Made by a program: the position numbers and the translations under genes
From: a virus
Direction: 5' to 3' (one strand)
Virus record (IMG/VR): IMGVR_UViG_3300025138_000278
Location: 1 to 27,094 of that record
DNA length: 27,094 nt
Notes under the pieces: generated by a model
Seen by the model: only the letters and a program-made list of their open reading frames with translations
What the model was told of the DNA's origin: nothing
Database searches by the model: none
Shown: positions 1,165 to 22,183 of the stretch, piece by piece
How positions within the stretch are numbered: position 1 is the first letter of the stretch
Layout: the number at the start of each line of letters is the position of its first letter

Positions 1165-1173
1165 TTATAAATA
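1165..1173 (-). promoter_or_regulatory. TATTTATAA motif upstream of the collagen-fibre gene
   Basis: The sense strand reads TATTTATAA 18 nt before the fibre start codon, in a 36-nt gap between genes. It is followed by TAAAATATTCC and AAACACC. It is one of five copies of the 9-mer, all just upstream of late-gene starts. It is a candidate late promoter element by position and recurrence only. Confidence 0.45.
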
Positions 1174-1182
1174 TATAAAGTT

Positions 1183-2247
1183 TTATTGTCTGTCAATGTT
1201 TACTAAAATTGTTGTATCAGTTGTTTTAGATGTTGGTAAAGGCTGTGCCATTTTTCCTACAGCTAATAATTCCTGATTATTATTATATAAACCTACTGTT
1301 GTAACATAGGGATCAAAATATGATGCTGTAGCAAAAGAACGCATTGCTCCTATATTAGAACCCGAGTTTATCATTGTTGGATTTAGTGTATAATTAAATT
1401 CACTTTCTCCTATTGTGCATTTATATTGCGTCTCATAAATAGTAAAAGAAGATGAAAATGAACAAGTAATGTTAGTTGTTTCTGCGAAGTTTAAAGAATC
1501 ATTGTTACCAACAGTTCTACCGCCATAAAAACCAGATCCATACTCAGCATCACCATAAGATCCAGTTAATCCTGTTCCTTCTTGTCTTGTACCTCCTGTA
1601 AATATAACTATACCATGTTCGTAAATAATATTACCTACTGTAATACTATCTTGAACACTAGAACTTGGAGTAGACATTTGTAATCTACCTTCTCCATCAT
1701 CAAAATAACTACCACTATCAGTTGTAATTCTTAATGATTTTGGAATAATATAATCTCCATATAATGCTCTAGGAATAGACATTGTAGAAATTTTTGGTTC
1801 AAATATTGAAATACCATAAACGGTATCACCATATTCTACTGTACCATATCCGTCTCCTGTTAATGAAGCTGCTGAATATGAACTTGTAAGCCAAAAACGT
1901 TGTGGTAATAAATCTGTTGGAATAAAATTTTCAAAAGCATTTGATGCTATTTTACCTGTAGTAGTACCATCAACATTTATTTTTAGTATATTTGCTTTTT
2001 GAACATTACCATTACTACTAGATATAAAATTAGAGTAGTATAGTTGTTGTGTTTGAAAATATATAGCTGATTGTGAGTATTCTGTTATATAACCTGTAGA
2101 ATCTTGAAGGGCAAACTTATTACCTATATATCTATCTATAGCTACATTAGACGCAGTTAAAGCATTACCCTCAAAGGAGAATCCTTTACTTACTTCTAGT
2201 GGAGATATTATTATATCTTGTGAATTTAGTGTTTTGTATGCCGCCAT
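1183..2247 (-). CDS. Virion structural protein with SEFNY C-terminal module (354 aa)
   Basis: Probable baseplate or fibre-associated virion protein. Its C-terminal 75 residues (about 281-354: SEFNYTLNP, then YVTTVGLYNNNQELLAVGK) match the end of the adjacent 344-aa protein (SEFNYSENP, YITTVGMYNDSNELIAVAK). The two are therefore paralogues, or share an assembly module. Two tyrosine-glycine segments occur at about 133-145 (GYGTVEYGDTVYG) and 230-242 (SYGDAEYGSGFYG). The rest is beta-rich and Ser/Thr/Gly/Asn-heavy, with no signal peptide or membrane segment. It starts 6 nt after the 344-aa gene's stop, so the two are probably co-transcribed, and it lies just upstream of the collagen fibre gene. 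It may be a fibre connector or an accessory wedge protein. I recognise this module as a type seen in marine myovirus structural regions, but know no assigned function. Confidence 0.72.
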   Translation of the reverse strand: MAAYKTLNSQDIIISPLEVSKGFSFEGNALTASNVAIDRYIGNKFALQDSTGYITEYSQSAIYFQTQQLYYSNFISSSNGNVQKANILKINVDGTTTGKIASNAFENFIPTDLLPQRFWLTSSYSAASLTGDGYGTVEYGDTVYGISIFEPKISTMSIPRALYGDYIIPKSLRITTDSGSYFDDGEGRLQMSTPSSSVQDSITVGNIIYEHGIVIFTGGTRQEGTGLTGSYGDAEYGSGFYGGRTVGNNDSLNFAETTNITCSFSSSFTIYETQYKCTIGESEFNYTLNPTMINSGSNIGAMRSFATASYFDPYVTTVGLYNNNQELLAVGKMAQPLPTSKTTDTTILVNIDRQ

Positions 2248-2253
2248 CCATTC

Positions 2254-3288
2254 TTAGAAATCTAATTTAACTCTAATAAGTGCTTCTTTTGTAAAGTCCT
2301 TATTTAGAGGTTTTGATAATTTTGCTACTGCAATTAATTCGTTACTATCATTATACATTCCTACTGTTGTAATATATGTTTGTGGGTTATTAATAAAATA
2401 ATCGTAAATAACTTCACCAGTTGATCCTGAAATATATGATGGGTTTTCTGAATAGTTAAATTCTGAGTTTCTTGCTCTAATAAATACAAAATCTGAAGTA
2501 ATTGTTTCTTCTGAATTTAATCCAAAATTAGAACCTGATTGTACAGTACCTAATAATCTTAATGGATTATCTCCATTTGTATTACTTGTAGTAATAGTTC
2601 CTAAATTTAACCCTTCAGCTGAGTTTAAATCTAAAGCATCTCCATTTAATAATACAGTACCAATATCTGGTAAGAATAAACCATATGACCCACTACTTAC
2701 AGTGTATCCTGATCCACCTGAACCTGAATTATATGAATAACCATCTGATCCACTAATTACTTGATATGCTCTCATTGTACCATAATAAGTTGGTACATTA
2801 ACCATATTTGAATCATCAGTTAATTTTAATGTTGTATTACCGGCTCCAATTGAACTACTTAATGTTAAGTTCAAAGATCCTGGGAATAATGCTTGTTTAT
2901 AAGCTGATCTTTCTATACTTAAAGCATAAATAGAACTTCCTGTTACACCACCAAATACAAAATCTGAATTTTCATCTTCTAATACTAATGTTCTATATTG
3001 ACCATAGATTGTTGAAGCTGGAGATACACCTGGAGCTGCGTTTTGGTTAAAGGCTAATGCCCCACCACCAGTTGAATTACCATAAGCAATTTCAAATTGT
3101 GCTGCAGCTGCACTTCCTGTTGGGTTTTGATCAAATACTGTTACATAATATTTACCTGTTTCTGTTGAAATCTGATTTGATTGTGTAAAGAAACTTGTTA
3201 ATACAGGTAAATTATTTGTCCAGCAAGTTTGAGTTTGTGCCTGTGCACTTACTACAAAATCATCTGCTTCTAATCTATTAAATGACAT
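2254..3288 (-). CDS. Virion structural protein with SEFNY C-terminal module (344 aa)
   Basis: Second of two adjacent structural proteins that share a C-terminal module. The last 75 residues contain NSEFNYSENPSYI, then TYITTVGMYNDSNELIAVAK, ending in IRVKLDF. The N-terminal part (MSFNRLEADDFVVSAQAQTQ) has no similarity I can see to the 354-aa neighbour, so the pair shares a tail rather than being a whole-gene duplicate. A glycine/serine-rich central stretch (SGSGGSGYTVSSGSYG) is probably a flexible loop or linker. There is no signal peptide or membrane helix. It lies 10 nt after the 221-aa gene and 6 nt before the 354-aa gene. An outer baseplate or fibre-attachment role is inferred from the surrounding genes. 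Confidence 0.72.
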   Translation of the reverse strand: MSFNRLEADDFVVSAQAQTQTCWTNNLPVLTSFFTQSNQISTETGKYYVTVFDQNPTGSAAAAQFEIAYGNSTGGGALAFNQNAAPGVSPASTIYGQYRTLVLEDENSDFVFGGVTGSSIYALSIERSAYKQALFPGSLNLTLSSSIGAGNTTLKLTDDSNMVNVPTYYGTMRAYQVISGSDGYSYNSGSGGSGYTVSSGSYGLFLPDIGTVLLNGDALDLNSAEGLNLGTITTSNTNGDNPLRLLGTVQSGSNFGLNSEETITSDFVFIRARNSEFNYSENPSYISGSTGEVIYDYFINNPQTYITTVGMYNDSNELIAVAKLSKPLNKDFTKEALIRVKLDF

Positions 3289-3298
3289 ATGTTTATTT

Positions 3299-3964
3299 TT
3301 ATGTTGTTGACTTAGTTATTGTAATTGGAATAGTAATTCTAGCTCCACTATCTAATCCATTGAACGTCAATGTACTTACAAGAGTTGAATTAGACCCGAA
3401 TAATGTATTTACTGTTGTAGCTCTCAATGTAAATTGAGTACCTGTAATAGTAGATGATACGTTAGTTCCAATTGTTTGTGTTGATGTTAAATTAGATGTA
3501 CTAGCAGCTACTGTATTAATACCCGTTGCTTCAAATTGATTTAACAATCTAATATCTGATACAGTACAACTATATCCTGCTGTTTCAAATACTTGGTCGT
3601 TACCTAAGTAATTTAATGTTTGAGGTGTAATTGCTAAAGTAGCTCCTTGTTGTAATGTTACTGCGTTGTATCCTACATTTAAGATAGGTAACTTTGCAGT
3701 TCCTCTTGGTAGTGTTACTAACTTGTATTTCATAATTTGGGATTCTTCTGGAAATGCTTCTAATAAAGGCATTCCATCTACAGCTTCACCGTAGAATGCT
3801 GAACCAGATGGATGATTTACATTATATAGTGTATAATCGATTTCATCATCTGCTAGTGCAAATTGTGTTATTCTAAAAGAACCATCATTCGCCGCTAATA
3901 ACTCTCTACCTTTAGTAGTAAGTATTGCGTCGATTGTCATTACTGAATTATTTAAATATCCCAT
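3299..3964 (-). CDS. Conserved phage structural-block protein (221 aa)
   Basis: The N-terminal half has a recognisable phage-type sequence: MGYLNNSVMTIDAILTTKGR, then about residues 23-45 with FRITQFALADDEIDYTLYN, then NHPSGSAFYGEA and MKYKLVTLPRGTAKLPIL. I recognise this block as recurring in structural regions of marine tailed phages, but its function is not established. After about residue 130 it becomes Thr/Ser/Asn-rich (STSNLTSTQTIGTNVSSTIT) and ends in what looks like a beta-sandwich (SGARITIPITITKSTT). It may be a compact adaptor in which the conserved N-terminus docks on the baseplate and a variable beta domain faces out. It is the first gene after a TATTTATAA motif and a shared 15-nt leader, so it may begin a transcript that includes the 344- and 354-aa genes. 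Confidence 0.7.
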   Translation of the reverse strand: MGYLNNSVMTIDAILTTKGRELLAANDGSFRITQFALADDEIDYTLYNVNHPSGSAFYGEAVDGMPLLEAFPEESQIMKYKLVTLPRGTAKLPILNVGYNAVTLQQGATLAITPQTLNYLGNDQVFETAGYSCTVSDIRLLNQFEATGINTVAASTSNLTSTQTIGTNVSSTITGTQFTLRATTVNTLFGSNSTLVSTLTFNGLDSGARITIPITITKSTT

Positions 3965-3965
3965 T

Positions 3966-3980
3966 GTGTGTTTTATTATA
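3966..3980 (-). promoter_or_regulatory. Shared 15-nt leader before ATGGG (copy 1)
   Basis: The sense strand reads TATAATAAAACACAC, then one base, then ATGGG. The identical 15-mer precedes the start at 22163. There is no Shine-Dalgarno sequence, so this A-rich leader may be the translation-initiation region, or it may include a -10-like TATAAT. Confidence 0.5.
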
Positions 3981-3984: not shown

Positions 3985-3993
3985 TTATAAATA
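3985..3993 (-). promoter_or_regulatory. TATTTATAA motif upstream of the 221-aa gene
   Basis: The 9-mer lies 20 nt before the start codon, in the 31-nt gap after the 1458-aa gene. The sense context is ACATATTTATAACATAT. Its recurrence at other late-gene starts makes it a candidate promoter core. Confidence 0.5.
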
Positions 3994-3995
3994 TG

Positions 3996-6900
3996 TTAAG
4001 TTATTAGTTTGTTGTCCCTTAGTTGAGTTATTACTTTATCTGGTTCGAGTTCTATTAAAGCTGTTGGGAACTCTGGAAATAATATACCCGTTGGTGTATT
4101 ATCTTTTTTAGATAGAGGTCTTTCAACGTATTCAAAAGATGGAGTTACTGAACTAGTTGATGCCATAGATTGTGTATAAACATCATTTCCATTTGCTACT
4201 GGATCTCCATTTTGATCATAAAATTGTGTTATAGCATCTGTATTAGTTTGGTCAGTTTCTACTTGATCAACTTTTAATCCACCATAAGGGAATAAACTGT
4301 TTAATATTACTGTATTAGGTGAGTATCTAAATCTTCTAAGTATAAAGAAATCTTTCTGAATAGAAGCTGGTACTTGTCTATCTAATTTTAATACTAATCT
4401 ATTATCTACTGTGTTTTCTGGAGGTGTAATTTCTAAAATAGTATATACCTGTTGTTCAGTGTTTTGAAATTTTATTTCATCCCCTACTTCTACTGTCCAA
4501 GGTATGTTATACGCTGGAATATTAGTATCTCTTGGTTCTATTCCTCCTGGGAATTGAGAATTTTCTGATGCTGTATATGGTAGGTATTTTTGATAAAAAT
4601 CTCCACCATAATTTACATTACCATTTGGTGAAATTAAAGCTAAAGCATCTCTTACCTCATTACCTGCGGATGATGAGAATCCCCAATATGGAACATTTAA
4701 AGCACCATCTACATTACTAGAAACTCCTTGTTCACTTTCAACTCTAACAGTTAAATATGGTCCATTACCAGCGGCAGCTGGTAGAGTTCCACCACCTAAA
4801 TATATAGGTTTTGTATTAGGGTTCCAATAATTTCTTTCTGGTTCTAAATTTTCTTGAGTATAGTATTGATAAGCTACAAATTTATATCTTCTGTTAGCTC
4901 TAATTTCTCCTTGAGGTTTTATATTAAATATAAATGAACAATAATCAGCATTTGTATGTGAAATACCTTGGCTTGCGTACGCATTTTTAATACTAGTAGG
5001 ATTAATTTTTACCCAACATTGTGTATTATTATTTTTTAATCCAGCATTTGATGAACCCATAGTATCAATTAAATTAAGATCTATTATTTGGTTGTTACCA
5101 AAATAACCTCTTAATATAGGATCTTCAATCATAGTAATTGGTGCATTAACCCATCCTGAATCACTAGTACCTGAAACATCAGTATATTGACATTTTACAT
5201 ATATTTCTCCAATATTTGTTTTATTATAATCAGAACTATCATTCCAACCACCATTATCTGTTTTATAAAATTTAGGCATTGTAGATGGAAATTCCATTAA
5301 TGCTGAAATTTCATAAACATCTGATAATTGATTACCACTTAAATAATCATATCCTGGAGGGGTATCTGTACTACCATTAATAGCAAAATAATCTCGATTA
5401 AAATATAATTCTCCAGTATTAGCATATTGTGCTACTACGTTTGCACCAGCTCCTGTTCCTCCATTTCCATTTGGAGCTGTTGATTCTATAGAAACAACTG
5501 ATGATGAAGCTTCACTTGGAAAACCTGAAGATATAAATCCATATCTTGATGATGTAGAGAATGTAAATAAACCTGCTGTTGCTGATTGATCTAAAACATT
5601 GTATTCTGGGACTACTTTATCATTTTGGTTATTTGCAGAATAATTTCTACCTTGAACTGTCATATTATAACTTAAAAACGAAGAAGTAAATGTTGATACT
5701 ATACCTGGTGCACCTGCTAATGGAAGGTCTGTTCTAAAAGTATTAGCACCTGTTTGTGACCATAATACTGCTACTGGTTCTTTAGCAACAAATTTTACTG
5801 GTTGTATCCCATTTAATTGATCGTATTGAGATGAACCTGATATTTGGTTAATACCTACTCTAGCATTTTGATTTTCAGTCCAACTTCCTTCAACATCATA
5901 AGCAGTATAAGGGGATAAATTAGGTTGTAAAGCATCACCACTATCATTTATTAAATATTTTAAGTTAAATTGTGTTACGTTATTTACTAATGGATAAGGA
6001 TCTATTACCTGATCACAATAAGCAAAATATGCTGTTTGGTAATCAATTACAGGTAAAGTACCAAATCCTCCTTCTGTTCCATCAGGTCTAGTAAATAAAT
6101 CTATACCACCTAAACCCTTAATTGTATTTACACCTGCAGCTGTTGTTCTACTACCTTGGTATTTGTTATTAATACTAGCTAATTGAGTATAATTTGATTC
6201 TGGTACTGTTGATTTTTCAGCAGAACCAGATAATATTTGGTTAAAATTTAATGGTTGGTAACCACCATACCCTGAGGCTGTTGGCACTTGTTCTACTAAT
6301 TGTATTCTTCTATTTTCTCTTTCCTGAAAAACATTATTAAATAAAGGTTGACAATCAACTGTATTGCTAAATCCTAATGTTCCAGAGAATGCGTTTTCTA
6401 TAAGTGTAGGTACTCTACCATCACCTTGTCCACTTTGGGTAGGTGTAAAGAATTCTAAACTATAATTTCTTACTACTAATGAATTTTCTACTGATTCAGA
6501 AGTGTAAGACCCTGATGATACAGCTAATGCCATAGATAAACAATCTTTAATTGCTATAGATTCTGATGGTATTGTAAAGCTCATTGTAAATGGAACACCT
6601 GCACTTTGAGTATGAATAAATGCACTTTCGTATATTGATTCTGTTAAAAATGCATTTGTTGTATTTGGTACACTAGTTGGATAACTACCTGTATAAATTC
6701 TTAATGATGCTGTCATCCATGTTGGTCCTTCTCCTGTTTCTCCTTCACCATACTCTGCACTTGCATAATCATCAACACCATATTTTGAACCGGAATCACT
6801 ACCTGTCCAAGGTGCTAATAATACAGAAGCAGTTACTTGAATATCATTTTGTGGTATTTGGTTAAATACATATAAACCATCTAAAGAAGATGATAATGAT

Positions 6901-8372
6901 GATGAAAATGAAATGTATGTATCTTCCCACCTTGTAGAAAAAATATCGTTTGGTGCTACACCTGGTCTAGAAGGATTTGTAATTTCTGAACTAAATCTAG
7001 TTCCTATATATTCACCCGTATTTAATCTAGTAGTATTATTTGGTAATGTATCAGAGGAAGTTGGGCTACCAACTAATGCTGTAATTATAGAAGCACTATT
7101 TGGTGATAATGTTATAAATCTCGCGTCTTGTGAACCACCATCCCCAATAAAATCTACTGTAATATCTGATTGTGCTGCAGGTCCTATATATTCAAATCTA
7201 TAAGCAGCATAAATATCATAATCAGCATATAGCCCAAACATTGTTGAACCTGAAGCTGGATTATTGTTATTATCGACTTGTGTAAATGCACTACTGGTAT
7301 ATGAATAGCTACCTGTAGAAAAAGTAACGGTATCATTTACTTGTGGAACCAAATTAAGTACATAACTTTGTTGCTGTTCAAGATCAGTTTGCCTTTGTGG
7401 GTAATTATTTAAATCCATTTGTACAGACTCCCCATTTGTAAATCCTGAAAATCCAGAACTTGGAGTAGCTCCCGTTACTCCTATAGTATAATAACTACCT
7501 TGTGTAGAAACACTTTGTATTGTATAATCAATAAAATCATCTGATACTGCTGGATCTGGTTGTATTCTAATAGTACCTGGTATTAAACCATCTGCTATAA
7601 CTGAAATTAAGGGGCCAAAAATTTGCCCGGTTGCTGATGTTGTATAAAAATATATTGAATTAGCTGATGCTGGACTTGTATTATTAAACATTAATTGCCC
7701 AGAAGTAATTGAATTTGGATTAGTATTTGTACTATAACTAAATCCTGTAAAATTAGCATCTAAATTTTGTTTGTATATAGAAACCCCTGCTCCTACTGCT
7801 GGTGGGTTTCCTAAAGTTGTATATTGAGTCCATATAAATGGGTGTACATCTCTTGTATCATCATATATAATAAATGAACCACTACTTGCTAATGGGGATA
7901 ATCCTGATATGTTACCTATAATATCTAATCTACCTTCTACATATTTTCCTGGAATATCAAATCCTGGTCCTGTGCCTAAAGCAGTTACATTTAAAGAACT
8001 TCCTGTAGGTGCATATGGATAACCTGGTATACCAGAACCTGTTTCGGTTAAAATATATGCTTTATATCCTCTATGAGCATGGGGGTTATATCTATAAGTT
8101 AAACCATCTCCACCATCTGTATTATATCCTCTATATACCCATAATTCTTGATTATCAGCAATAGGAATTATTGTATCTGAAAGTTGTTGGTTTTGAACTA
8201 CATAACTTGTGTTCATCCCTAAAGTAGAAATTTTAGATGTTAAATTAGGATCAAATACCGCAGCATTATTTTTACTTGACGTTAAAAGAGCATTCATCCC
8301 ATCTCTAGTTGTTGAACCAGAAACAAGAATTTGATTGTTATCCTCTTTTAAGTAATATTGTATTGTTGGCAT
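3996..8372 (-). CDS. Large virion structural protein (1458 aa)
   Basis: Very large Ser/Thr/Asn/Gly/Tyr-rich protein without a signal peptide or membrane segment, beginning MPTIQYYLKEDNNQILVSGS. Composition and position indicate a virion component, probably outer baseplate wedge or fibre-network protein, made after the gp6/gpI-like genes. Visible features: a tyrosine-glycine stretch near the middle (KYGVDDYASAEYGEGETGEG); many Gly/Ser-Gly-Ser turns typical of beta-rich fibre proteins; and a C-terminal beta region (VGDEIKFQNTEQQVYTILEI, then LVLKLDRQVP). The acidic-basic tail is TALIELEPDKVITQLRDNKL. I cannot assign a named family. The ATG used lies only 3 nt after a TATTTATAA motif. If that motif were a -10-like element, the transcript would be almost leaderless, or Met26 (RDGMNALL) would be used instead. 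The gene follows the 1874-aa gene after 48 nt. Confidence 0.75.
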   Translation of the reverse strand: MPTIQYYLKEDNNQILVSGSTTRDGMNALLTSSKNNAAVFDPNLTSKISTLGMNTSYVVQNQQLSDTIIPIADNQELWVYRGYNTDGGDGLTYRYNPHAHRGYKAYILTETGSGIPGYPYAPTGSSLNVTALGTGPGFDIPGKYVEGRLDIIGNISGLSPLASSGSFIIYDDTRDVHPFIWTQYTTLGNPPAVGAGVSIYKQNLDANFTGFSYSTNTNPNSITSGQLMFNNTSPASANSIYFYTTSATGQIFGPLISVIADGLIPGTIRIQPDPAVSDDFIDYTIQSVSTQGSYYTIGVTGATPSSGFSGFTNGESVQMDLNNYPQRQTDLEQQQSYVLNLVPQVNDTVTFSTGSYSYTSSAFTQVDNNNNPASGSTMFGLYADYDIYAAYRFEYIGPAAQSDITVDFIGDGGSQDARFITLSPNSASIITALVGSPTSSDTLPNNTTRLNTGEYIGTRFSSEITNPSRPGVAPNDIFSTRWEDTYISFSSSLSSSLDGLYVFNQIPQNDIQVTASVLLAPWTGSDSGSKYGVDDYASAEYGEGETGEGPTWMTASLRIYTGSYPTSVPNTTNAFLTESIYESAFIHTQSAGVPFTMSFTIPSESIAIKDCLSMALAVSSGSYTSESVENSLVVRNYSLEFFTPTQSGQGDGRVPTLIENAFSGTLGFSNTVDCQPLFNNVFQERENRRIQLVEQVPTASGYGGYQPLNFNQILSGSAEKSTVPESNYTQLASINNKYQGSRTTAAGVNTIKGLGGIDLFTRPDGTEGGFGTLPVIDYQTAYFAYCDQVIDPYPLVNNVTQFNLKYLINDSGDALQPNLSPYTAYDVEGSWTENQNARVGINQISGSSQYDQLNGIQPVKFVAKEPVAVLWSQTGANTFRTDLPLAGAPGIVSTFTSSFLSYNMTVQGRNYSANNQNDKVVPEYNVLDQSATAGLFTFSTSSRYGFISSGFPSEASSSVVSIESTAPNGNGGTGAGANVVAQYANTGELYFNRDYFAINGSTDTPPGYDYLSGNQLSDVYEISALMEFPSTMPKFYKTDNGGWNDSSDYNKTNIGEIYVKCQYTDVSGTSDSGWVNAPITMIEDPILRGYFGNNQIIDLNLIDTMGSSNAGLKNNNTQCWVKINPTSIKNAYASQGISHTNADYCSFIFNIKPQGEIRANRRYKFVAYQYYTQENLEPERNYWNPNTKPIYLGGGTLPAAAGNGPYLTVRVESEQGVSSNVDGALNVPYWGFSSSAGNEVRDALALISPNGNVNYGGDFYQKYLPYTASENSQFPGGIEPRDTNIPAYNIPWTVEVGDEIKFQNTEQQVYTILEITPPENTVDNRLVLKLDRQVPASIQKDFFILRRFRYSPNTVILNSLFPYGGLKVDQVETDQTNTDAITQFYDQNGDPVANGNDVYTQSMASTSSVTPSFEYVERPLSKKDNTPTGILFPEFPTALIELEPDKVITQLRDNKLIT

Positions 8373-8375: not shown

Positions 8376-8384
8376 TTATAAATA
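8376..8384 (-). promoter_or_regulatory. TATTTATAA motif upstream of the 1458-aa gene
   Basis: The 9-mer (sense context ACATTATTTATAACAT) sits only 3 nt before the annotated ATG, in the 48-nt gap after the 1874-aa gene. The short spacing weakens a simple promoter reading unless the mRNA is nearly leaderless or translation starts at a later Met. Confidence 0.35.
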
Positions 8385-8420: not shown

Positions 8421-11400
8421 CTATGGATTATATCCTGTATTACTATATACTTGTTGTTGAATCGTACAAACAGGATTTTGACTTGATTGTGCTACTGTCA
8501 TAATCGTAACATTAGCACTTCTGGATGATAATGGAAAAGATCCTAATGCTAAATTTGGATCATTAGCAACCGTAACTTGAATCGATGTAGTTCCTGTTCC
8601 AAAATAAGAACTTAAAGTAACCCACCCAGCACCATCTGCATAATTTACTATTGCAAACCAAGTTGCTGTTTGATCTGCAAATGTTAGTTGTATTATTCCT
8701 GGGGAGTAATTAACTTGTGAAAATCCATTTAAACCAATTCCACAACTTAAAGTAAATGCATTATTAGTATTATTGTTATTTAAAACTAATGGGAAAACAG
8801 GTGAATCGGATACTACAGGAGTTGGTGTTGTTAATGTTGTAAATGCAGGGCCAATTGGTACAGCAGACGCTGTAATTGAACCTGTATACAATTGTAAATC
8901 TTTAGCTCCTAAATTACCTACTAATGAGGATGCACTTAATATCTGAAGTGTACTAGCAGCGGTATTCATAAACCATGGGGATGTACTAGTACCTCCTGAA
9001 TGGATAGAATCAGCATCAAATTCTGTTGATCCTGTATTAAAGTTTCCTAATATATCACTATTAAACCCACTACCTGAGGATACTCTATAAACTGTTCCAT
9101 CAGCATTTCCTTCAAAATAATTTGCTTTATCCCATCCTCTAAAAAATGATTCAGTTGGGAATGTTGGTACTGGAGGAAAATATCCTTGTGCTACTGATTG
9201 AGTAACTCCTATACTAGGTATTACATTTGGATCCTCTCCTGAGGCAGTAGAATAATATGAATAAACTCCACTTGCACTAAAAGATAAATCATAAAATGCA
9301 CTATCATATGAATTAACAGCATCTGATGATGGTGCTTGATTTACAATTATTAATGTAGCGTTTTCTGTACTTGGGTTATTATCATCTTGTACTGATACAT
9401 TTGAAATGAACCATGTTTGAAATCCTTGAATTAAATTACCTAAATAATCAGATGCACCAGTTAAATTAAATGTTACATAGTCTGAATCTGTTATAAATGG
9501 AACAATTGAAACACCGTTTACATCAACATTAGACATTTTCATGTATTTTACTTTGTTTGATGTTGAAGATGTAATTGTTCTAATATCACCTGATTGTATA
9601 TCAACTACTAATGGTTGATCAAGAACTGGTTTTATAAACCCTGCTGTATCTAGTGATAATTGTGTATATGATACTGTATCTCCTCCTACATATCCTGATC
9701 CAGTTGATTCTATATAAACTTCTATTCCAACTAATGGTCCTGCTCCTATAAAACTTTGTGTTATACCTAAAACAAGTCCTGTACCTGTTCCTGATGTAGA
9801 AGTAGGAGTTAAACTAGCTGTTATTGGGGGTGAACCTTGTGAATTAGTTACTGCGGTAGGGTATGTTGAATATGGTTGTTGTGAAATAGTTAATGGTTCC
9901 CCCTCTGCTAACCCTGTAGTTGAACTACCTGAAACATCTGTCCACATCCAAACGTTACCTGCTAAAGGTAAAATATTTGGACTTAAGAAACTATCTTCAG
10001 CAAAATTATCCGCTGTAAACCATTGTATTCTAAAGAAATAATCTATAATAGAATCTTGCCCAAAAAATGCATCACATATTTCATTCATTCCTACTGGTAT
10101 TGGGCTACCAAATTCACCATTATAAAATTCTCTTTGATCAATTCTTTCTACTCTAACTGGAGGTACTTGATTTGATCCTGTTTTATTTTGTTCATATATA
10201 GGTGTTATACCTAAACCTGGTACAAATTTTTCTTCCCATGATTGTTGAAAATCCGGAAATTGTTCCCACAATGCTGATGCTGAAACTTCAGATGCTGTTT
10301 TACCACTATATGGTCTTCCATTTATAGTGAAACATATATCTATTTCATCTAAACTTATAAATGGATTATTTAAACCCTGTGAATTATCTGATACGGTTAA
10401 ATAAAATTCAAACATATTATTATAATCACCATAAGGGGCTATACCATAATCATCAGTACCATAACCATCAAAATATAATGTTTTATCTATTTGATGTGTA
10501 ATACTAAGTGATGCAGAAGAAACTGTAACAAATACTTCTCCTTCTATAGATGCTGTATGTACTAAACTTAAAAAATCAGTATAGTTTTGTCCTGTAGTTC
10601 CTTCAACATTAATACTCATTGTATTATTTGAATTACCTATATTAGTATTAAATACTGTCTCACCTGGAGTGTTTTGTGGTTCTAATAAATCTGTTGATGA
10701 TGTAAAGAAATAACCTAATAAACAAGTTGTTTCACTTGAAGCACTTATAGGTGCTGCATATATACTATTATATGGTTCAAATACACCACCAGTTCCACCT
10801 CTAAATACTTGAATAGAAGATCCACTAATAATTGAATCTTGTGGGTATGAACTACTTGAATTTGGTACTTGATAATCTCTAGCAAATGACTTAACTGAAC
10901 CTGAATAGGTTACATTACCATAAGACATTGATGGTGGAGATTGTACATTTCTTTCTAATAAATTCTGTTTAATTACTACACCTGAACTTAACGTTGTTCT
11001 AGCAGGTGTAAAATCTTCTATCATTTTAAATAATGAATTATCAAAGAATTTAATTAATCTAATAAAATCATTTACATCATAACTGTCAATATATTTATTA
11101 AAATAATCATCTCTTAAAGCATCTAATTGTGGGTAAGATGTTTTAGATTCTGAAATTTGTCTAGGATCACCTATATAATCACCTAAATTAAATGCACCTA
11201 TTTGTGCTATAATATCATCATTAGTTTGATCTGTAGGTGAAAATGCTACTTCTAAATAATTTATACTTGGGCTACTTCCACTTGGATAAGTAGATTGTTG
11301 TATTGATCTGTATGGACTTAAAGTAGAACCTGTTGGTAATACTTCTTGGTCTATTTTTATTTTATCTGTAATTCTATTTTTAATACCTCCTGGTACTTGA

Positions 11401-14045: not shown

Positions 14046-14048
14046 ATA

Positions 14049-14591: not shown

Positions 14592-14596
14592 AATTT

Positions 14597-16084
14597 TTAC
14601 CCGTTTACTACTTTAAAATAATAATTTTCATCCATTACTATAGTTTGTCCATCAATTTCTGTTTGGATTAGTATATTATAATACCTTTCTGGTTCCAAAC
14701 CATTCATATAAACAGTAAAATAACTTGATGTAGGATCACAGCTTATTTGTGTGAATTCTTTATCAAAATCAATTACAAATTCGTTTGTATCTAAATCTTT
14801 TATAGCATAATAAGATGCAGAAGGCAAAGCAAAATTGGTTGTGTATAGTGATGATGTCTGGAATGTACGAACTGGAAATTCAGGACGCACGTTTAATCTA
14901 AAGTCATTTATACTTTCACTGTAAAATACTCCAGCATTATTATCTAAAGCAACATATAAATCGGGTGTTGCAATAACATTAAGTTGTTGAATATCAAAGG
15001 TTGATATTGTAACTACTGAATCTGTTCCACCTGATGTAATTCCAGGTAAAGCATCTATTTGAGCAGTACTCCATGTTAATTGATCTCCTGCTTTGTAACC
15101 ACTTCCTATATCTTTAACGAATACATTTATCATATTTGGCTCATTAAATGTAGCTCCAAATGTAGCTCCAGTACCTGTTCCACTATTAACAGTAGGTGTA
15201 GGTAATGATTGAGTAAATGAACATGATATGTTTGTTACTAATGCTGTAGAGTAATTTGAACCTGTTAATGTTCTTTGTAATTTAAAATCTCCACTACTAG
15301 TTGAATATGTAAAATCTCTCCATTTAATTTCTAATTCTGGAGGGTATATTGTATTTGTATCTACGGAATAGTAACTTAATTGAGGTGATACAGCACTTGA
15401 AGTAACAAATTCTTGAGCATCAGCCCATTTTAATAAAAATCCGTTATTAGCTATATCAATTTGTCCTGCATTTATATCTTTAGAAGATGAATACCATACT
15501 TTTACTATATCAGTAACATTCATTTCTAGATCCTTAGTACTACGTAAATTATATGATTGAGATACGCCCATATTAGCGTTATTAACGTTAGTATATGTAC
15601 CAGAACCTGTATACCATACACCTCCACCAGCATTATTACTTCCTGAATATGATCCCGTAGTTAACGGAACAAATCCAGCTGTAGGCCATTGATATGAACC
15701 TGAATAATCTGAGTATTCCCAACTTATTCCATTAGTTCCTTGTTTATTATCTAAATATTGTCCTGTTCCATTATTCCATGATCCTGAAAGTGGCCATGCT
15801 TCAACGTATGAATTTATAATTACATTACTTGCTTTAGCAACATTAAGTTTTAAACTACTTGACCAGTTATTAAATTCTGATCCTGTTACTTTTGCTATTG
15901 TATCAATAACATTTTCAACTTCACTTTGATCAAATTGAACCACTGATCTAGCTACTTGTGCTACAGGGTTAAATTCTGTGACGAAATTAGCTATATCCAA
16001 TATAGGATCAAGTCCAGTATTCATAGAGCGATAAGCACTATAAATCGAGGCATCTTGAGAAGGAAATAATTTATATATTGCCAT
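14597..16084 (-). CDS. Virion structural protein, DNRLRE-like N-terminus and GSGY module (495 aa)
   Basis: The N-terminal 250 residues resemble a DNRLRE/carbohydrate-binding-type beta-sandwich: KLFPSQDASIYSAYRS, an ARSVVQFD strand, LKLNVAKA, then VEAWPLSGSWNNGTGQ and a DIVKVWYSS strand. This is a pattern match only. Residues about 295-350 contain a GTGTGATFGATF...DIGSGYKAGDQLTW module that recurs in the 1874-aa protein. The C-terminal 130 residues look like further beta domains ending in ENYYFKVVNG. There is no signal peptide. It starts 2 nt after the gp6 gene, in the same transcription unit. A wedge-associated or fibre role is inferred, possibly filling a slot between the gpJ- and gpI-like proteins. 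The hypothetical-structural call is strong; the DNRLRE label is moderate. Confidence 0.7.
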   Translation of the reverse strand: MAIYKLFPSQDASIYSAYRSMNTGLDPILDIANFVTEFNPVAQVARSVVQFDQSEVENVIDTIAKVTGSEFNNWSSSLKLNVAKASNVIINSYVEAWPLSGSWNNGTGQYLDNKQGTNGISWEYSDYSGSYQWPTAGFVPLTTGSYSGSNNAGGGVWYTGSGTYTNVNNANMGVSQSYNLRSTKDLEMNVTDIVKVWYSSSKDINAGQIDIANNGFLLKWADAQEFVTSSAVSPQLSYYSVDTNTIYPPELEIKWRDFTYSTSSGDFKLQRTLTGSNYSTALVTNISCSFTQSLPTPTVNSGTGTGATFGATFNEPNMINVFVKDIGSGYKAGDQLTWSTAQIDALPGITSGGTDSVVTISTFDIQQLNVIATPDLYVALDNNAGVFYSESINDFRLNVRPEFPVRTFQTSSLYTTNFALPSASYYAIKDLDTNEFVIDFDKEFTQISCDPTSSYFTVYMNGLEPERYYNILIQTEIDGQTIVMDENYYFKVVNG

Positions 16085-16086
16085 AA

Positions 16087-17928
16087 TTATAAGTTTACAA
16101 CACGTCCTTTTATGTCAGTGTTTGGATATCTAATTTCAAAAATACTTGGGTCTAATGATGGGAATATTGTTCCATTTTGATTAGCACCCTTCATATCGTA
16201 AGCCCATTGAGAATATCCTTTTGTTGTTCCTGTTTTATTATTTATAAAAACATTTTTTACTGTTTGTACCCCATCTAATTGATCTAATAATACAAATAAA
16301 TCTGGGATTATAATAGGTTGTGATATTTGCCACCTATTTGTATCAAAATAAGTTTGTAAAGATCTAATACATACTTCTAATACTTGATTACTATTAAAAT
16401 TTGGGTAAGTAATGATTTCAAAATCTACACTAAAGTTTATTACAAAAGCATCTTTAATACTTATTGTATCCCCTATCATTCTATATTGTTCTATATATTT
16501 TTTTAGATTATTTTTTATAGTATCTGATGCTACTGTTAGTTTATTATTAGCATCTTCTGTTAATACATAAAGATCTAATGTTGTATTTGCTTCATCTGCT
16601 TTTGGTTTTTGAGTATGTGCCTTAGATACTTTACCATATCTAGATGGCATACTAAGTGCTCTTACTAAATAATCATCTGCAGTAACATTTCTTAATTGAG
16701 TAGTAAAATTGGAAATTGAATTTTGTCTAATTTCTTCTACAGTATCTCCATCTTTTCCTCCTGATGCTCCAAAGGGGTTGTTTGATGCTAATGAATCAAA
16801 AACATATTGTGCTGTATTTGAATTAAGTCCTCCTTGTATAAATTTAATACCTCCAGTATTTAAATTAGTTGTAGTATTAGCTAAAACATTAGATTGTACC
16901 CCACCTCCAGTATAATATCTTACTGTAAGTGTAGTATTAGTTGGTGAAACTCCATAAGTATTTGTAAATATAAAATTTGTTGGAGAATATGCTGCTGTTA
17001 ACTTATTTTGTTCAAAAGGTAATCCTAAACCTACATTAAATGGGTTTGGAATAACTTCTTCAGTTGTATCCGCTGGGTTACCTGCTCCAAATTGTAATTG
17101 TAGAGTTGTTGAATTTAAAAATCTTGTAGCAAATCTATTTTGTACTTGTTTTGTTTGTAATAAAAATGGAGCGTCAGTATCTAAAGAAGTATTAGGATCA
17201 TTTACATTAGTATTTCTTAAACTATCATATATTAATTCTTGACCTAAATAATCTACTTCGTACCATATATTCCCATTACTATCTACAACATCTAATATAC
17301 CTGCTATGTTACTATCAGTAATATTAAATGTAAGGAATTCTTGTGGATCACCAACTGAAAATGTTGTAGTAGCAATAGTTCCTGAGTATGTTTTTCTTGT
17401 TTTTTTCAATAAATAATAAGAAGGTATACCTAGGGAAAGTGCTGCTACCGTTTCAAAAGTTTGATCTAATGAACTTGATATAGAAAAATCTATAGGGTCT
17501 TGGGTTGTAAAATTAACTATACTTCCTCCTGTTGTAGATACCTGTGTATTAGCAGGGAGGTATAAAGCATAATCATAATCGGGTACATATTCTGAACCTG
17601 ATAATTTTGCTGGTACTTGTTGATAAAAATCAATATCAACTTCCGCTAGACCTGTAGTTTTAGGTTTGTAACCATACATATATGCCATATCATATAAGTT
17701 ATCGGGTTGTCTAGCGTATTGTAAGAAATTTTCTTGGATTTGATTATCCATATAAAAAGATAAAACATCTCCAATATATGCTGCTTGTTCAATAAACATC
17801 ATACCTACAGAAGAATTAGTAAAATCTGTGTAAGTAGATGGAAAATACGTTTGAGAATAATTTATTAGTTGGTTTCTAAACTCACCAAAATCTTTATTTA
17901 TATAATTTATGTTTCTTCTTACTGCCAT
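16087..17928 (-). CDS. Baseplate wedge protein, gp6/gpJ family (613 aa)
   Basis: Baseplate wedge component that in T4-type phages dimerises to tie wedges into the baseplate ring. The N-terminus is characteristic: INYINKDFGEFRNQLINYSQ, then FTNSSVGMMFIEQAAYIGDV and LQYARQPDNLYDMAYMYGYK. The conserved core lies at about residues 385-445, with GGKDGDTVEEIRQNSISNF and TADDYLVRALSMPSRYGKVS, the usual gp6/gpJ signature. The C-terminus carries INFSVDFEIITYPNFNSN and a late beta segment. At 613 aa it is close to the length of T4 gp6. Its ATG overlaps the gp25 stop by one base (TAATG), and gp25-gp6 adjacency is a hallmark of contractile-tail baseplate operons. I am confident of the family; equivalence to T4 gp6 in detail is inferred. 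Confidence 0.9.
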   Translation of the reverse strand: MAVRRNINYINKDFGEFRNQLINYSQTYFPSTYTDFTNSSVGMMFIEQAAYIGDVLSFYMDNQIQENFLQYARQPDNLYDMAYMYGYKPKTTGLAEVDIDFYQQVPAKLSGSEYVPDYDYALYLPANTQVSTTGGSIVNFTTQDPIDFSISSSLDQTFETVAALSLGIPSYYLLKKTRKTYSGTIATTTFSVGDPQEFLTFNITDSNIAGILDVVDSNGNIWYEVDYLGQELIYDSLRNTNVNDPNTSLDTDAPFLLQTKQVQNRFATRFLNSTTLQLQFGAGNPADTTEEVIPNPFNVGLGLPFEQNKLTAAYSPTNFIFTNTYGVSPTNTTLTVRYYTGGGVQSNVLANTTTNLNTGGIKFIQGGLNSNTAQYVFDSLASNNPFGASGGKDGDTVEEIRQNSISNFTTQLRNVTADDYLVRALSMPSRYGKVSKAHTQKPKADEANTTLDLYVLTEDANNKLTVASDTIKNNLKKYIEQYRMIGDTISIKDAFVINFSVDFEIITYPNFNSNQVLEVCIRSLQTYFDTNRWQISQPIIIPDLFVLLDQLDGVQTVKNVFINNKTGTTKGYSQWAYDMKGANQNGTIFPSLDPSIFEIRYPNTDIKGRVVNL

Positions 17929-18335
17929 TATGCAAAATTTAGTGTTACTTCGTCTTCTATATTAGTGTCTATTATAGCATAAAATATTGCAACAGATACT
18001 TCATTATTATCTGGGTTATTTGTTACATTTAGTTCTTGTACATCCACGTTAGGAAATTCTCTACTTATTTTAGATTGGATATCTTCTTTTAAAAATTCTG
18101 TAGATTGCTGATTTATTTGGGAAAATATAAAATCTCTTAATCCTCCACCAAATTCTGGGTTTCCTATTCTTTCACCGGGGTTTGTTAAGAAGAAATTTAT
18201 TAAATTATATCTAGTAGCTTCTGCTGTTGTATAATTGGAGGTAAATCCCGTCCCCTCAGCAAGGGGTAAATTAATACCTATACCTACTCGAGGTCTTAAA
18301 TCATTAGGTTGTATATTTACTGCTCCAAACGCCAT
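17928..18335 (-). CDS. Baseplate wedge protein, GPW/gp25 family (135 aa)
   Basis: Small lysozyme-like-fold wedge protein that nucleates the sheath and contacts gp6 in contractile machines. The family signature is visible at residues about 43-70, NLINFFLTNPGERIGNPEFG followed by GGLRDFIF, which contains the conserved GER and FG/GL core. A helix (TEFLKEDIQSKISREFP) and a C-terminal beta pair (SVAIFYAIIDT) complete the fold. Length is typical for the family. The gene couples to gp6 by a TAATG overlap and follows the 117-aa gene after 10 nt. Despite the fold name, this family is structural and not an active muramidase. Confidence 0.93.
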   Translation of the reverse strand: MAFGAVNIQPNDLRPRVGIGINLPLAEGTGFTSNYTTAEATRYNLINFFLTNPGERIGNPEFGGGLRDFIFSQINQQSTEFLKEDIQSKISREFPNVDVQELNVTNNPDNNEVSVAIFYAIIDTNIEDEVTLNFA

Positions 18336-18345
18336 ATTTTAATTT

Positions 18346-18699
18346 TTATTTACTCTTCATTAATCCCATAATCATATCCATAGGTACATTTCCTTGTGGT
18401 AATTGACCATTAGCTGATGTTGTATCACCACTACCCATTTGTAAAGGCATATCTGCTGTTGTAGCACTTAATGTGCCTTGAGCGTTAGGTCTCATACTGT
18501 CTAAAACACCCATCATGTTTTCTCTTAATTTCATTTTATCATTTTCTGGTAATGGAGTATTTGCAACAGGAGTCGATTGTATCTCTGAAACTACAGCCTT
18601 AGGAACGCGTACAGCTTCTAAAAGGATGTCTTTCATTTCTTCTTGTATTGCCTCTTTTACGGCTTCTTTTACAATAGTTTTTAATTGACTTAATTTCAT
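18346..18699 (-). CDS. Small helical protein in the baseplate block (117 aa)
   Basis: Unrecognised. The first 30 residues form a strongly amphipathic, charged helix (MKLSQLKTIVKEAVKEAIQE), probably a coiled coil. The rest is flexible and rich in Met, Pro, Gln, Ser and Thr, ending in MDMIMGLMKSK. It has no catalytic motif, signal peptide or membrane helix. It sits between the 590-aa protein and gp25, and its start is preceded by a TATTTATAA motif 15 nt upstream, so it may open a transcript carrying gp25 and gp6. It may be an assembly chaperone or small baseplate linker, but that is only suggested by context. Confidence 0.65.
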   Translation of the reverse strand: MKLSQLKTIVKEAVKEAIQEEMKDILLEAVRVPKAVVSEIQSTPVANTPLPENDKMKLRENMMGVLDSMRPNAQGTLSATTADMPLQMGSGDTTSANGQLPQGNVPMDMIMGLMKSK

Positions 18700-18714: not shown

Positions 18715-18723
18715 TTATAAATA
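18715..18723 (-). promoter_or_regulatory. TATTTATAA motif upstream of the 117-aa gene and gp25-gp6
   Basis: The 9-mer is in the 29-nt gap after the 590-aa gene, 15 nt before the start codon (sense context TCTAATATTTATAACTAAAC). It would place a candidate late promoter directly ahead of the inner-wedge genes. Confidence 0.5.
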
Positions 18724-18728: not shown

Positions 18729-20501
18729 TTAATCTGCTTTTAAATTATTTATTTGTATATAAAATGATAATTCATCGATTAGTATTTGATCTTCAGCACT
18801 AAATGATGGTTCACCTTTTAAAATTGTAATTCCTTTAGAGTTTTTAGCAATAGCTTGTCTTCTAGGCAATTCCCCTACTTGAGCTTTATCTACTACTTCA
18901 ACTGACATATTAAACCCATTTACTATTTTTTCTTGGGGTTCTCCTTGTTCGGTAGCTTGCGCACTCAATGCTAATAGTTCAGCATTTATTGCTACTAAAT
19001 TTCCTGTACTTTCACATCCTTCTATTAACTTATCAATTGTTTTTAAATATCTTAATATTATAATAAGAGAAATTATTAAAAATATTAATGATATTATTAG
19101 TTGTTTTTTTAATTCTTTATTAACGTCTCCTAGTTTGTTTAAAGCCTCTTTTATACCTTCTAATTTGCTAATTACAGAAAATGGTATACCAACACCCCCA
19201 ACAGCTGTAGGGAAATTTAAATTTTCAATAATTTTTGAAATTCCTACTAAAAATCTACTTAAATATTCAAATAAAAATGCTAATGCTACATTTGAGATTA
19301 TAATAATGAATATATTATTTATTTGTTTTACTATTGAATTTCTTTTTCTTATAATATCTTTTAATCTTTCATTACTGGGACATTTGCTTTGTAATTGATT
19401 GGCTTGTTCTTCTTTAGCAATACCAAAGAAAATCATTAATTCGAATGCTAAAGGTAATAGTTTTGTTTGAACTACAGTAGCAGGTTTTAGTACCGATTTT
19501 CTTAAATTGTTTAAAAATGTTGCTGGGATATCAAAGTATGGGTCAATTTCCTTAATTACAAATTGATTAACTTCTTCAACAGCTTTATCTTTTGCTATTT
19601 CTGCTGCTTTTTCTATGTTATATAAAGCATGTATATTAAGTTCAGAAGGAATTTCTCCATTTTGTGTAACAATTGCTTGAATAGAAGGGGCATATGTTGA
19701 TCCTTTAAATTCACCTGTTTTGGATTCTTCAACATCTGTTATTGTTTGAGCTCTATCATCATCATCTACATAAGCAACAAAAGGTGGGGTTTTAGGAGGG
19801 GTTAAAGTTCTAGTAGGTTGAGCATCTAAAACAGGTAAACCAATTGTAATTGTATATTCACCTTGATCATCCGTCTTAGTATAAAATGCGCCTAATTCAT
19901 TAGTATCTCGACCAATCTCAGGATATGAATTTTTTGGGTCTAATTGATCAGCATCCCTAACACTTTGAAATAAATTGTTACCTTCTTTATCAAGTAATTC
20001 TTGTTTTGTAATTCTATTTTGTCTAATAACTGATGAATATGACCCAAAATCACGAATATCAGTTCCATAAATCGCTGGGTCGTTACTTACAGGGAAAATA
20101 CAAAGTTGAGGGTATACTTTTATACCCTCTATAGGGTCTTTAGAAAATTCATCATATACTTTACCTTTTACAGTAAACTTCTGGATGTAAGGTTCGTATT
20201 TACCTATTTCCTGTCCAGCTCTTTCTTTTCCTTCTGCTTTTAACCTATCATATTCTTCAGAAATTACCTCATTTCTTGATTCTCTTCTTATTTCTTTTAA
20301 TCGTTCCTTTTCTTCCTTTGTAAGATTTATTCCTCCAGGTTTAACAACATCATTTGTTCCAACTATGTTTGATTGTTGGGCTAATTTAATAGCTTCAGTT
20401 ACTTTATTGATATTATCAATATCAAGTTTTTCTAATAATTTTATACCTTGAGGGGTTGATAAAAATTGATTTGCGGCATTTAATATAATGTTAACCTCCA
20501 T
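18729..20501 (-). CDS. Baseplate-locus protein with carboxypeptidase-regulatory-like domain and hydrophobic helices (590 aa)
   Basis: No family is recognised for the whole protein. Residues 60-105 are a highly charged helix (KEEKERLKEIRRESRNEVIS). Residues about 108-270 look like a CarboxypepD_reg/transthyretin-type beta domain: FTVKGKVYDEFSKDPIEGIK opens the domain and TKTDDQGEYTITIG is the usual turn before the last strands. It is enlarged by an insertion between these two segments. Residues 347-362 are hydrophobic. Residues about 396-425 (NNIFIIIISNVALAFLFEYL) and 467-485 (LIISLIFLIISLIIILRYL) look like genuine membrane-spanning helices. The gene lies 1 nt after the spike gene and before gp25, so a tail role is likely. 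Membrane helices are odd in a virion protein: it could be tucked in the tail lumen and released into the host envelope, or be a membrane-bound assembly factor. Confidence 0.65.
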   Translation of the reverse strand: MEVNIILNAANQFLSTPQGIKLLEKLDIDNINKVTEAIKLAQQSNIVGTNDVVKPGGINLTKEEKERLKEIRRESRNEVISEEYDRLKAEGKERAGQEIGKYEPYIQKFTVKGKVYDEFSKDPIEGIKVYPQLCIFPVSNDPAIYGTDIRDFGSYSSVIRQNRITKQELLDKEGNNLFQSVRDADQLDPKNSYPEIGRDTNELGAFYTKTDDQGEYTITIGLPVLDAQPTRTLTPPKTPPFVAYVDDDDRAQTITDVEESKTGEFKGSTYAPSIQAIVTQNGEIPSELNIHALYNIEKAAEIAKDKAVEEVNQFVIKEIDPYFDIPATFLNNLRKSVLKPATVVQTKLLPLAFELMIFFGIAKEEQANQLQSKCPSNERLKDIIRKRNSIVKQINNIFIIIISNVALAFLFEYLSRFLVGISKIIENLNFPTAVGGVGIPFSVISKLEGIKEALNKLGDVNKELKKQLIISLIFLIISLIIILRYLKTIDKLIEGCESTGNLVAINAELLALSAQATEQGEPQEKIVNGFNMSVEVVDKAQVGELPRRQAIAKNSKGITILKGEPSFSAEDQILIDELSFYIQINNLKAD

Positions 20502-20502
20502 A

Positions 20503-21804
20503 CTAGCTTACTTTTACTCTTCTTGATAACATTCGTTTCATTTCTTCTCTAAGGGTTTTAATTTGAACATCATACGACACAAAAGCAAAACTCGCTGCTA
20601 GTGATAATGTAGGTTCCTTAGACAATGTTTGTAAAAGTTGTCCATATGAACCTAAGAAAAGGTCAAATTTTTCCATAAAAGAACTTCCTAATATAACTGC
20701 TTCCCTAGCATTAGGTTTTCCTAGTGACACCTTTCCTTCAGGTGCTAAAATATTAACATTCCCTTTTTTAGATCTTATAGCAGAATCTGCATTAGAATCT
20801 AAAATTGTTGATTTAGCTGAAGATAAAATTATACTATCCTCAGATGAATTAAGTAATAATCTATTAGAATTTAATATTATTTGAGGGTTATTATAAGATG
20901 TTGGAGATATTGGGGTCTTTTTAACCATCCTTGAAAAAGGAACAGTAATACCTTCACCTGATTTTACTTCAGTTGTTGAAACTAAAATTGGGATTTGTTG
21001 GTTTGAAGTTAAATATATAGAAGAAGGATCTAAGTTTATGTCTTCCGTAGTTGGAAGAAAACCAGGTCCTGTAATAGAAGCATTTTGTCCGTTTTTTAAT
21101 ATAGTAATAGCACTACCTTCTTGTCCACTTCTAGACCAATTATTTGTTATATCTCCTTCAGTTTTAGCTGTTGCTCCTAATCTAATACTATTCCCAAATC
21201 TACCTTCAAATATTCTATCTCCTGCAAAGGGTAAAACAGCTTGTATGTTTCCATTTTCTGTAAAATTACCTCCTGAAGTACCATTAAGGTTTATTTCAAT
21301 AGGGGTTTGGATTGCTTCCATGTCAGCACCAGCTTCTATTTCACTATAAGTTTTATTACTTTGTGGTGTGTTATTTTCAGCAACAGATAAAGGATCGGGG
21401 GAAGCATTTTGTTCATTATCATTCCATAGTTTTAAGCTTACATAATAATATATAGGATCTGTACCTGGACCAGGATCTGTAATAGAAGGGCCTAGGAATA
21501 GTAAAACATACTCATTTACTAAAGGAAATTCTTTAATAAAAGGTTGTAGTGGGGTTGCTGTAGAATAGCTTGATTGCTTAGTTGCATTACTAGTAGTAAT
21601 TTTTACATCTTCCCATTTTATAGCACCTATACCAAAATACTCACCATTAGTTAAAAACATTTCAGAATTGGTATTTAGACATACATCTTTTACCCTTCCA
21701 ACTAAAATATTATTACCTAACTGTGAAAGTTGATTTGATAAATTACCTGGTGATGGGGTAGAGTTACCTTTTCTTATTTGACTAATTCCTGCTCTAGTAG
21801 CCAT
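20503..21804 (-). CDS. Baseplate hub/spike protein, gp5/gpV-like (433 aa)
   Basis: Probable central spike, which punctures the outer membrane at the tip of the tail tube. Residues about 33-125 look like the OB-fold seen at the start of gp5/gpV/VgrG proteins (NILVGRVKDVCLN, then PLVNEYVLLFLGP and YYYVSLKLW). Residues about 192-211 contain FAGDRIFEGRFGNSIRLG, a strand pattern I associate with phage gp5-like proteins. Residues about 308-362 are short repeating strands (IILNSNRLLLNSSEDSIILS, then GNVNILAPEGKVSLG), as in the spike beta-helix. I see no lysozyme domain insert, unlike T4 gp5, and no PAAR tip. The C-terminus is helical and basic. The start overlaps the 119-aa gene's stop by one base (TAATG), and its own TAG stop lies 1 nt before the 590-aa gene. 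Confidence 0.75.
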   Translation of the reverse strand: MATRAGISQIRKGNSTPSPGNLSNQLSQLGNNILVGRVKDVCLNTNSEMFLTNGEYFGIGAIKWEDVKITTSNATKQSSYSTATPLQPFIKEFPLVNEYVLLFLGPSITDPGPGTDPIYYYVSLKLWNDNEQNASPDPLSVAENNTPQSNKTYSEIEAGADMEAIQTPIEINLNGTSGGNFTENGNIQAVLPFAGDRIFEGRFGNSIRLGATAKTEGDITNNWSRSGQEGSAITILKNGQNASITGPGFLPTTEDINLDPSSIYLTSNQQIPILVSTTEVKSGEGITVPFSRMVKKTPISPTSYNNPQIILNSNRLLLNSSEDSIILSSAKSTILDSNADSAIRSKKGNVNILAPEGKVSLGKPNAREAVILGSSFMEKFDLFLGSYGQLLQTLSKEPTLSLAASFAFVSYDVQIKTLREEMKRMLSRRVKVS

Positions 21805-22163
21805 TACTTATCTTTTTTCTTTTCTTCTTTATATGCGTTTTGGATATTATCTAACTCAGCAAGTAATTCATCTTTTTCAGCATCAGTAATTCCTGATTCA
21901 TCACCGGTATTTTGATTATTTACTACACGTTGAATAATAGTTGCCATCTTAATTAGTTGTTCATCATTACGAACACCTATTTCTAAATATTCCTTAATTA
22001 AAGGTACAATTAATGTAGCATCACCTATATCCGATATAAGTGGTTTTAATTCAGAAATTAATCCTGTAATTTGTGTTTCTTTTTTCTTTTGATTGTCGTA
22101 AATTTCGCTTAGTATATCTGAAAATTTCTTAGTTCCAAATATTACATTGTCTAATGCTCCCAT
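21804..22163 (-). CDS. Small helical protein at the head of the baseplate block (119 aa)
   Basis: Not recognised. It is predicted mostly helical and charged: MGALDNVIFGTKKFSDILSE, then about residues 67-85 (NDEQLIKMATIIQRVV), and a Lys/Glu-rich C-terminal helix ending in NAYKEEKKKDK. It has no signal peptide, membrane helix or catalytic motif. It is the first gene after the sigma factor and opens the baseplate run, coupled to the spike gene by a TAATG overlap. It has both the TATTTATAA motif and the shared 15-nt leader upstream, so it is a good candidate for the first cistron of a late transcript. A tail or baseplate assembly function is possible by context only. Confidence 0.68.
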   Translation of the reverse strand: MGALDNVIFGTKKFSDILSEIYDNQKKKETQITGLISELKPLISDIGDATLIVPLIKEYLEIGVRNDEQLIKMATIIQRVVNNQNTGDESGITDAEKDELLAELDNIQNAYKEEKKKDK

Positions 22164-22164
22164 A

Positions 22165-22179
22165 GTGTGTTTTATTATA
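22165..22179 (-). promoter_or_regulatory. Shared 15-nt leader before ATGGG (copy 2)
   Basis: The sense strand reads TATAATAAAACACAC, then one base, then ATGGG, identical over 15 nt to the leader of the 221-aa gene more than 18 kb away. Here it overlaps the end of the TATTTATAA motif. Confidence 0.5.
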
Positions 22180-22183
22180 AATA
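22175..22183 (-). promoter_or_regulatory. TATTTATAA motif at the head of the baseplate block
   Basis: The 9-mer lies 11 nt before the 119-aa gene's ATG, in the 33-nt gap after the sigma-factor gene (sense context TCCATATTTATAATAAAA). It is the candidate late promoter for spike and downstream genes. Confidence 0.5.

Follow-up and report, generated by a model that had tools for sequence, protein, structure and literature searches.

Among T4 relatives, late promoters have been described in those that infect Proteobacteria and cyanobacteria; in T4 itself they are served by the gp55/gp33/gp45 system, and RNA synthesis starts about 6 nt after the promoter box. The T4 late box, TATAAATA, occupies positions -13 to -6 (PMC1524935); it has no accompanying -35 element, and the DNA downstream of it is AT-rich (PMC2988020). 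In the T4-related phage Aeh1, the late box is CTAAATA, starting from -12, and was altered together with a diverged gp55 (PMC1524935). On the host side, the primary promoter of Flavobacterium johnsoniae contains a -7 element, TAHHTTTG, which spans -12 to -5 (PMC6847099). In the open-licence literature, we found no description of late promoters in T4-related phages of Bacteroidota, or of the word TATTTATA(A) that is analyzed here.

The window, i.e., the whole analyzed stretch of 27,094 nucleotides, is IMG/VR record IMGVR_UViG_3300025138_000278, a fragment of its genome. Structural genes of a T4-related myovirus, including those for gp25-like and gp6-like baseplate proteins, form a module in it that runs in one direction on the minus strand; the window has no nucleotide similarity to phage records. 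A sequence-only reading of this DNA had placed the nine-mer TATTTATAA at five sense positions, each in a small gap before a late gene, with no further minus-strand copy within genes. An exact search of the window recovered all five minus-strand (sense) copies, at 1165-1173, 3985-3993, 8376-8384, 18715-18723 and 22175-22183, each in a gap before a structural gene; the absence of other minus-strand copies was also correct, the lone extra copy (plus strand, 16239-16247) being a chance antisense occurrence inside the gp6-like baseplate gene (16087-17928). The comparison with shuffled sequences that the same reading had suggested gave a divided answer: the total of six copies in the window is ordinary (3.4 +/- 2.0 in shuffles, with 14 of 100 shuffles reaching six), whereas the placement in sense gaps is not, with five copies in 582 bp of gaps versus 0.12 expected, none of 1000 gap-wise shuffles reaching five, and rank 1 among the 126 nine-mers of the same composition. 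Only five gaps of at least 29 nt precede structural genes; each contains exactly one copy, and the shorter gaps contain none. The genes that carry a box are operon-initial only. The T4 word TATAAATA does not occur in the sense gaps of the window, and TATTTATA, which differs at two of eight bases, is found there instead.

In coordinate order, the boxes stand 18, 20, 3, 15 and 11 nt before the ATG; the first three distances had been given correctly, and the last two had been interchanged. The box at 1165-1173 lies 18 nt before the ATG of a collagen-like tail-fibre gene (1-1146), an exact match in the gap, and would head predicted late operon 5 (1-1146), which continues past the window edge. This tail-fibre protein consists mostly of collagen-like GXX repeats and has a profile resemblance to bacterial collagen-like adhesins. 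The box at 3985-3993, in front of predicted late operon 4 (1183-3964, three genes), is 20 nt from the ATG of gene 3299-3964 (MGYLNNS...), and in Flavobacterium phage immuto, the orthologue of this gene (gp107) is likewise preceded by the box, at 18 nt from its ATG. At 8376-8384, the box is 3 nt from the ATG of gene 3996-8372, the single large gene of predicted late operon 3, and is one of the short-spacing sites for which leaderless transcripts are predicted; no relatives were found when the N-terminal portion of this gene was used for a scan, and therefore this site has no orthologue comparison. The box at 18715-18723 is 15 nt from the ATG of gene 18346-18699 (MKLSQLK..., the MKL gene), the beginning of predicted late operon 2 (8421-18699), which includes the gp25-like, gp6-like and further structural genes; dozens of relatives have orthologous boxes, at 2-18 nt from the ATG. 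The box at 22175-22183, directly after a sigma-like gene (22197-22925), is 11 nt from the ATG of gene 21804-22163 and precedes predicted late operon 1 (18729-22163, three genes), defined by the gene layout. A degenerate box, TATGTATAA, at 24777-24785, lies 18 nt before the ATG of gene 24306-24758 (MIDKDRIF...), and the exact box stands in front of the orthologues of this gene in four relatives (L015, L024, L033 and L066). All these features are on the minus strand, as is an early-type, putatively promoter-like stretch, TATCTTTCGTATATTCACGGTATATTAATAATTTAAAACAC, at 26919-26959, which precedes a DUF932 gene and resembles a non-late motif of immuto. The block upstream of the sigma-like gene also encodes a T5orf172/MUG113 domain protein (24998-25462), the counterpart of which in immuto, gp123, has a similar place.

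Using the sigma-like protein as a query, we matched hundreds of IMG/VR stretches (at least 600 fit the patterns of one query) and, in deposited phage records, immuto (44% identity), LR756508 (41%) and Microcystis phage Mel-JY01 (37%); a scan with the Mel-JY01 sigma as the query found no relatives. Alignment of the upstream regions of related phages, which had been proposed as a check, showed that the exact box is kept at orthologous sites, and 31 of 33 distinct IMG/VR relatives retain an unaltered copy at the position following the sigma-like gene (22175-22183). Across the window-like loci (36 after dereplication), where noncoding DNA constitutes 4.5%, 81 of the 104 copies are noncoding and in sense orientation before a gene, with 2 other noncoding, 14 coding-sense and 7 coding-antisense copies; the corresponding numbers for the 58 copies in 67 immuto-like loci are 42, 7, 4 and 5. 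In total, more than a hundred relatives of the phage carry the box ahead of virion-gene operons. In the aligned sites, which were picked by the box itself and are thus informative for the flanks only, an A or C precedes the box and an A-rich tail follows it; the core is invariant and the flanks drift. No -35-like block common to the window-like and immuto-like families was seen in the aligned upstream regions; a strong G at -28 in the immuto-like sites is probably carried by one orthologous site. Most relatives also share TATATCCA directly before the box at the 22175-22196 site; it is absent from the other listed sites and is specific to this one. The 484-kb phage LR756508 is the only related record in which the TATTTATA box seems to be missing; in the small part of it that was examined, no enrichment of the box was seen.

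The complete genome of immuto makes it possible to relate the box to gene class. Sense gaps of immuto contain 15 copies of TATTTATA versus 1.2 expected, and none of 1000 shuffles reaches 15; the genes headed by the box include those for portal, terminase, sheath, tube, hub, tape-measure and fibre proteins. Of the 42 gaps in structural (late) regions, 17 contain the box, versus 7 of 85 gaps elsewhere (P = 5e-5, which is indicative because the regions were set from annotation after the motif map had been seen, "late" being assumed from gene function). A different motif, TATATTTAGGTATCAATAATTAAAA, has the opposite distribution (1 of 42 late-region gaps versus 22 of 85 other gaps). The same division holds between the two phages: the late box precedes the gp117-like and MGYL genes in immuto and the window alike, and the DUF932 gene has the non-late upstream type in both. 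Two observations in immuto speak against a late promoter: seven gaps outside the late regions carry the box, and the major capsid gene lacks one immediately before it, so that it must be read from a box farther upstream. It should be noted that a longer motif, TTCGTATATTTAGGTATCAATAATTAAAAC, precedes many small immuto genes outside the late regions, mainly at 67-76 kb of the record, and resembles an early promoter akin to the host -7 element. Another observation concerns immuto gp126 (24474-24992 of immuto stretch L082), the annotated start of which seems too early: an internal TATTTATA followed by an ATG 4 nt on (MKKLNSDDLF) fits the start of the orthologues in relatives.

Mel-JY01, reported from a cyanobacterium, provides a more distant comparison. 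Its late gaps contain 13 copies of the core ATATTTAT versus 1.4 expected (0 of 500 shuffles), and no copies of TATAAATA. Genes of Mel-JY01 are preceded by SD-like GGAG sequences, and most of its ATATTTAT boxes are located tens of nucleotides upstream of the ATG, ahead of a separate SD. Because the distance between the box and the ATG changes with the phage while the core stays, the box is more likely to be a transcription signal than a translation signal. The sense gaps of Mel-JY01 are also enriched for repeated words around AGTTCTTGCATAC and for a TCTCTCT run, possibly its early signals.

The 3-nt spacing at 8376-8384 had been called awkward, and the relatives show that it is no anomaly: TATTTATA lies 3-5 nt from the ATG at 54 sites, 6-8 nt at one site and 9-25 nt at about 145 sites. 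Several unrelated genes have the 3-5 nt spacing, and many immuto-like phages have a constant 3 nt before the MKL gene; 11 T4 late sites measured in the same manner are 17-73 nt from the ATG. With the T4 or the Flavobacterium -7 geometry, the RNA start in the short class would fall on the A of the AUG or at most 2 nt from it; with strict T4 geometry, the start at the shortest spacings would fall 1-2 nt inside the AUG, and therefore must be nearer to the box than in T4. The 3-5 nt class thus predicts leaderless late mRNAs, which may account for the short class as well as for the nearly empty 6-8 nt interval. Most F. johnsoniae mRNAs carry leaders (PMC6847099), so that leaderless late mRNA is a prediction rather than a known habit of the host.

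The protein of 242 aa encoded at 22197-22925 had been described as a gp55-like sigma factor. Profile and structure comparisons agree with a divergent sigma-like protein, and the kinship to gp55 is remote only. In comparisons based on database record X01804 and its relatives, the protein matched the gp55 family with E = 1.2e-4, and with E = 0.0045 when the larger profile A4 was used (hhalign); the best match to the PHROG late sigma had E = 0.03. Sigma70_r2 was weakly detected in 6 of 10 family members, below the cut-off, as were several other sigma models, and PDB sequence searches with sigma profiles gave nothing useful. A first structure model had a pLDDT of 69, and a second, built from 53 sequences, 74; the PDB structure matches were mostly sigma factors, none at E <= 0.001, and those in a viral structure library were also mostly sigma factors, the best (E = 2e-4) being unnamed. 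The resemblance is to the sigma fold and sigma region 2, and the model contains an additional C-terminal helical domain without a counterpart in gp55. The gp45 clamp (PF02916, PF09116) was found in T4 and was not detected by Pfam in immuto, Mel-JY01 and two 160-kb IMG/VR records, although these relatives may have a diverged clamp.

Position, strand, conservation and gene class of the box, together with the sigma-fold resemblance, are observed; the promoter role, the reader and the RNA start position are inferred from them. We propose, with a probability of about 0.78, that TATTTATA(A) is a -10-type late promoter box of a large group of T4-related Bacteroidota phages, read by the phage sigma-like protein. 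The host RNA polymerase core with this protein would bind the single box without a conserved -35, melt the AT-rich DNA downstream and begin RNA about 4-6 nt past the 8-mer, such that each of the five boxes of the window would head one late operon. Where the ATG is 3-5 nt away, RNA synthesis would start on the AUG or beside it, giving a leaderless message; other spacings would give a short leader. The proposed link between the sigma-like protein and the box rests on co-occurrence. The sigma gene is located just upstream of operon 1, in a block beginning with the early-type sequence near 26959, and this gene order suggests a cascade in which an early promoter would yield the sigma, which would then act on the late promoters. 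A bolder reading, somewhat less likely than not, is a lineage-wide recast of the late system, with a TT centre, gp45 absent, a C-terminal domain gained by the sigma and many late mRNAs leaderless at the AUG, as the SD-independent host ribosomes would allow.

The most serious alternative, albeit an unlikely one, is that the host primary sigma uses the box as a variant promoter, without a phage sigma. Indeed, TATTTATA fits T-12, A-11, T-8 and T-6 of the F. johnsoniae element (PMC6847099), and TATATTTATAA, which overlaps the early-type TATATTTAGG, is seen at a few sites in immuto. However, the box has A at the host T-7 and at G-5, the exact box is kept between orthologues, and immuto has a separate host-like motif with the opposite gene distribution. 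The same core is also kept in Mel-JY01, which was reported from a cyanobacterium.

Less probable still is an AU-rich translation enhancer or ribosome signal before highly expressed genes: the box is always upstream of the ATG, and Bacteroidota lack SD signals and favor A-rich upstream sequence (PMC6847099), but the bimodal spacing, from 2 to more than 20 nt, the location of most Mel-JY01 boxes tens of nucleotides upstream, before a separate SD, and the rarity of the box outside the immuto late region, with only operon-initial genes marked in the window, argue against such a signal. We give a similarly low probability to an mRNA processing site that makes late 5' ends from longer transcripts. 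A cut and a start are indistinguishable by sequence alone, and the T4 literature cautions about the same confusion (PMC2988020); nevertheless, there is no conserved element beyond the box, the box is similar to the T4 late box, a sigma-like gene is present in the same genomes, and the core persists across very different hosts. Finally, the ordinary whole-window count would suit a chance AT-rich word in AT-rich gaps, an explanation made extremely improbable by the gap-wise shuffles (0 of 1000), the first rank among 126 words of the same composition and the conservation of orthologous sites in relatives.

T4-related phages of Bacteroidota are a very common group in IMG/VR, and the late-promoter box would provide a ready map of late operons for hundreds of uncultured genomes. 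The sigma and the box are a natural pair for studying the shift in sigma region 2 specificity between TATAAATA and TATTTATA, and, because its distances to the ATG fall into two classes, the box allows leaderless late mRNA to be tested directly in immuto, a phage in culture.

The sequence-only reading had suggested a T4-related late promoter with changed orientation or consensus. Conservation, location and gene class point to a changed consensus. A changed orientation is unnecessary: on the same strand, TATTTATA equals TATAAATA at 6 of 8 positions, with only the two central bases different. Given the symmetric form TAT-NN-ATA, reverse complementation yields the same-strand word with the central AA replaced by TT, and the reverse-complement relation to the T4 promoter noted in that reading is therefore the same fact. 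With the Bacteroidota primary promoter, the box shares TA at the upstream end and a similar distance to the start; however, it lacks the TTTG block and the G at -5, and the host-like motif marks other genes. Aeh1-like divergent late promoters likewise combine a changed T4-type late box with a diverged gp55, the putative counterpart here being the remotely gp55-like sigma, but the changes in Aeh1 are at the upstream end, with the central AAATA retained, whereas here the centre is altered. Compared to T4, the centre is TT rather than AA, the boxes are mostly 3-25 nt from the ATG versus 17-73 nt at the T4 sites checked, no gp45 clamp was found by Pfam in four relatives, and the sigma has an extra C-terminal domain. 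Shared with the T4 late promoter are a single 8-bp TATA-type box without a conserved -35, AT-rich downstream DNA, the position at the head of virion-gene operons and, probably, a phage-encoded protein with remote kinship to sigma region 2. The box is a real conserved element, and its most likely role is that of a late promoter that departs from the T4 type at two bases.
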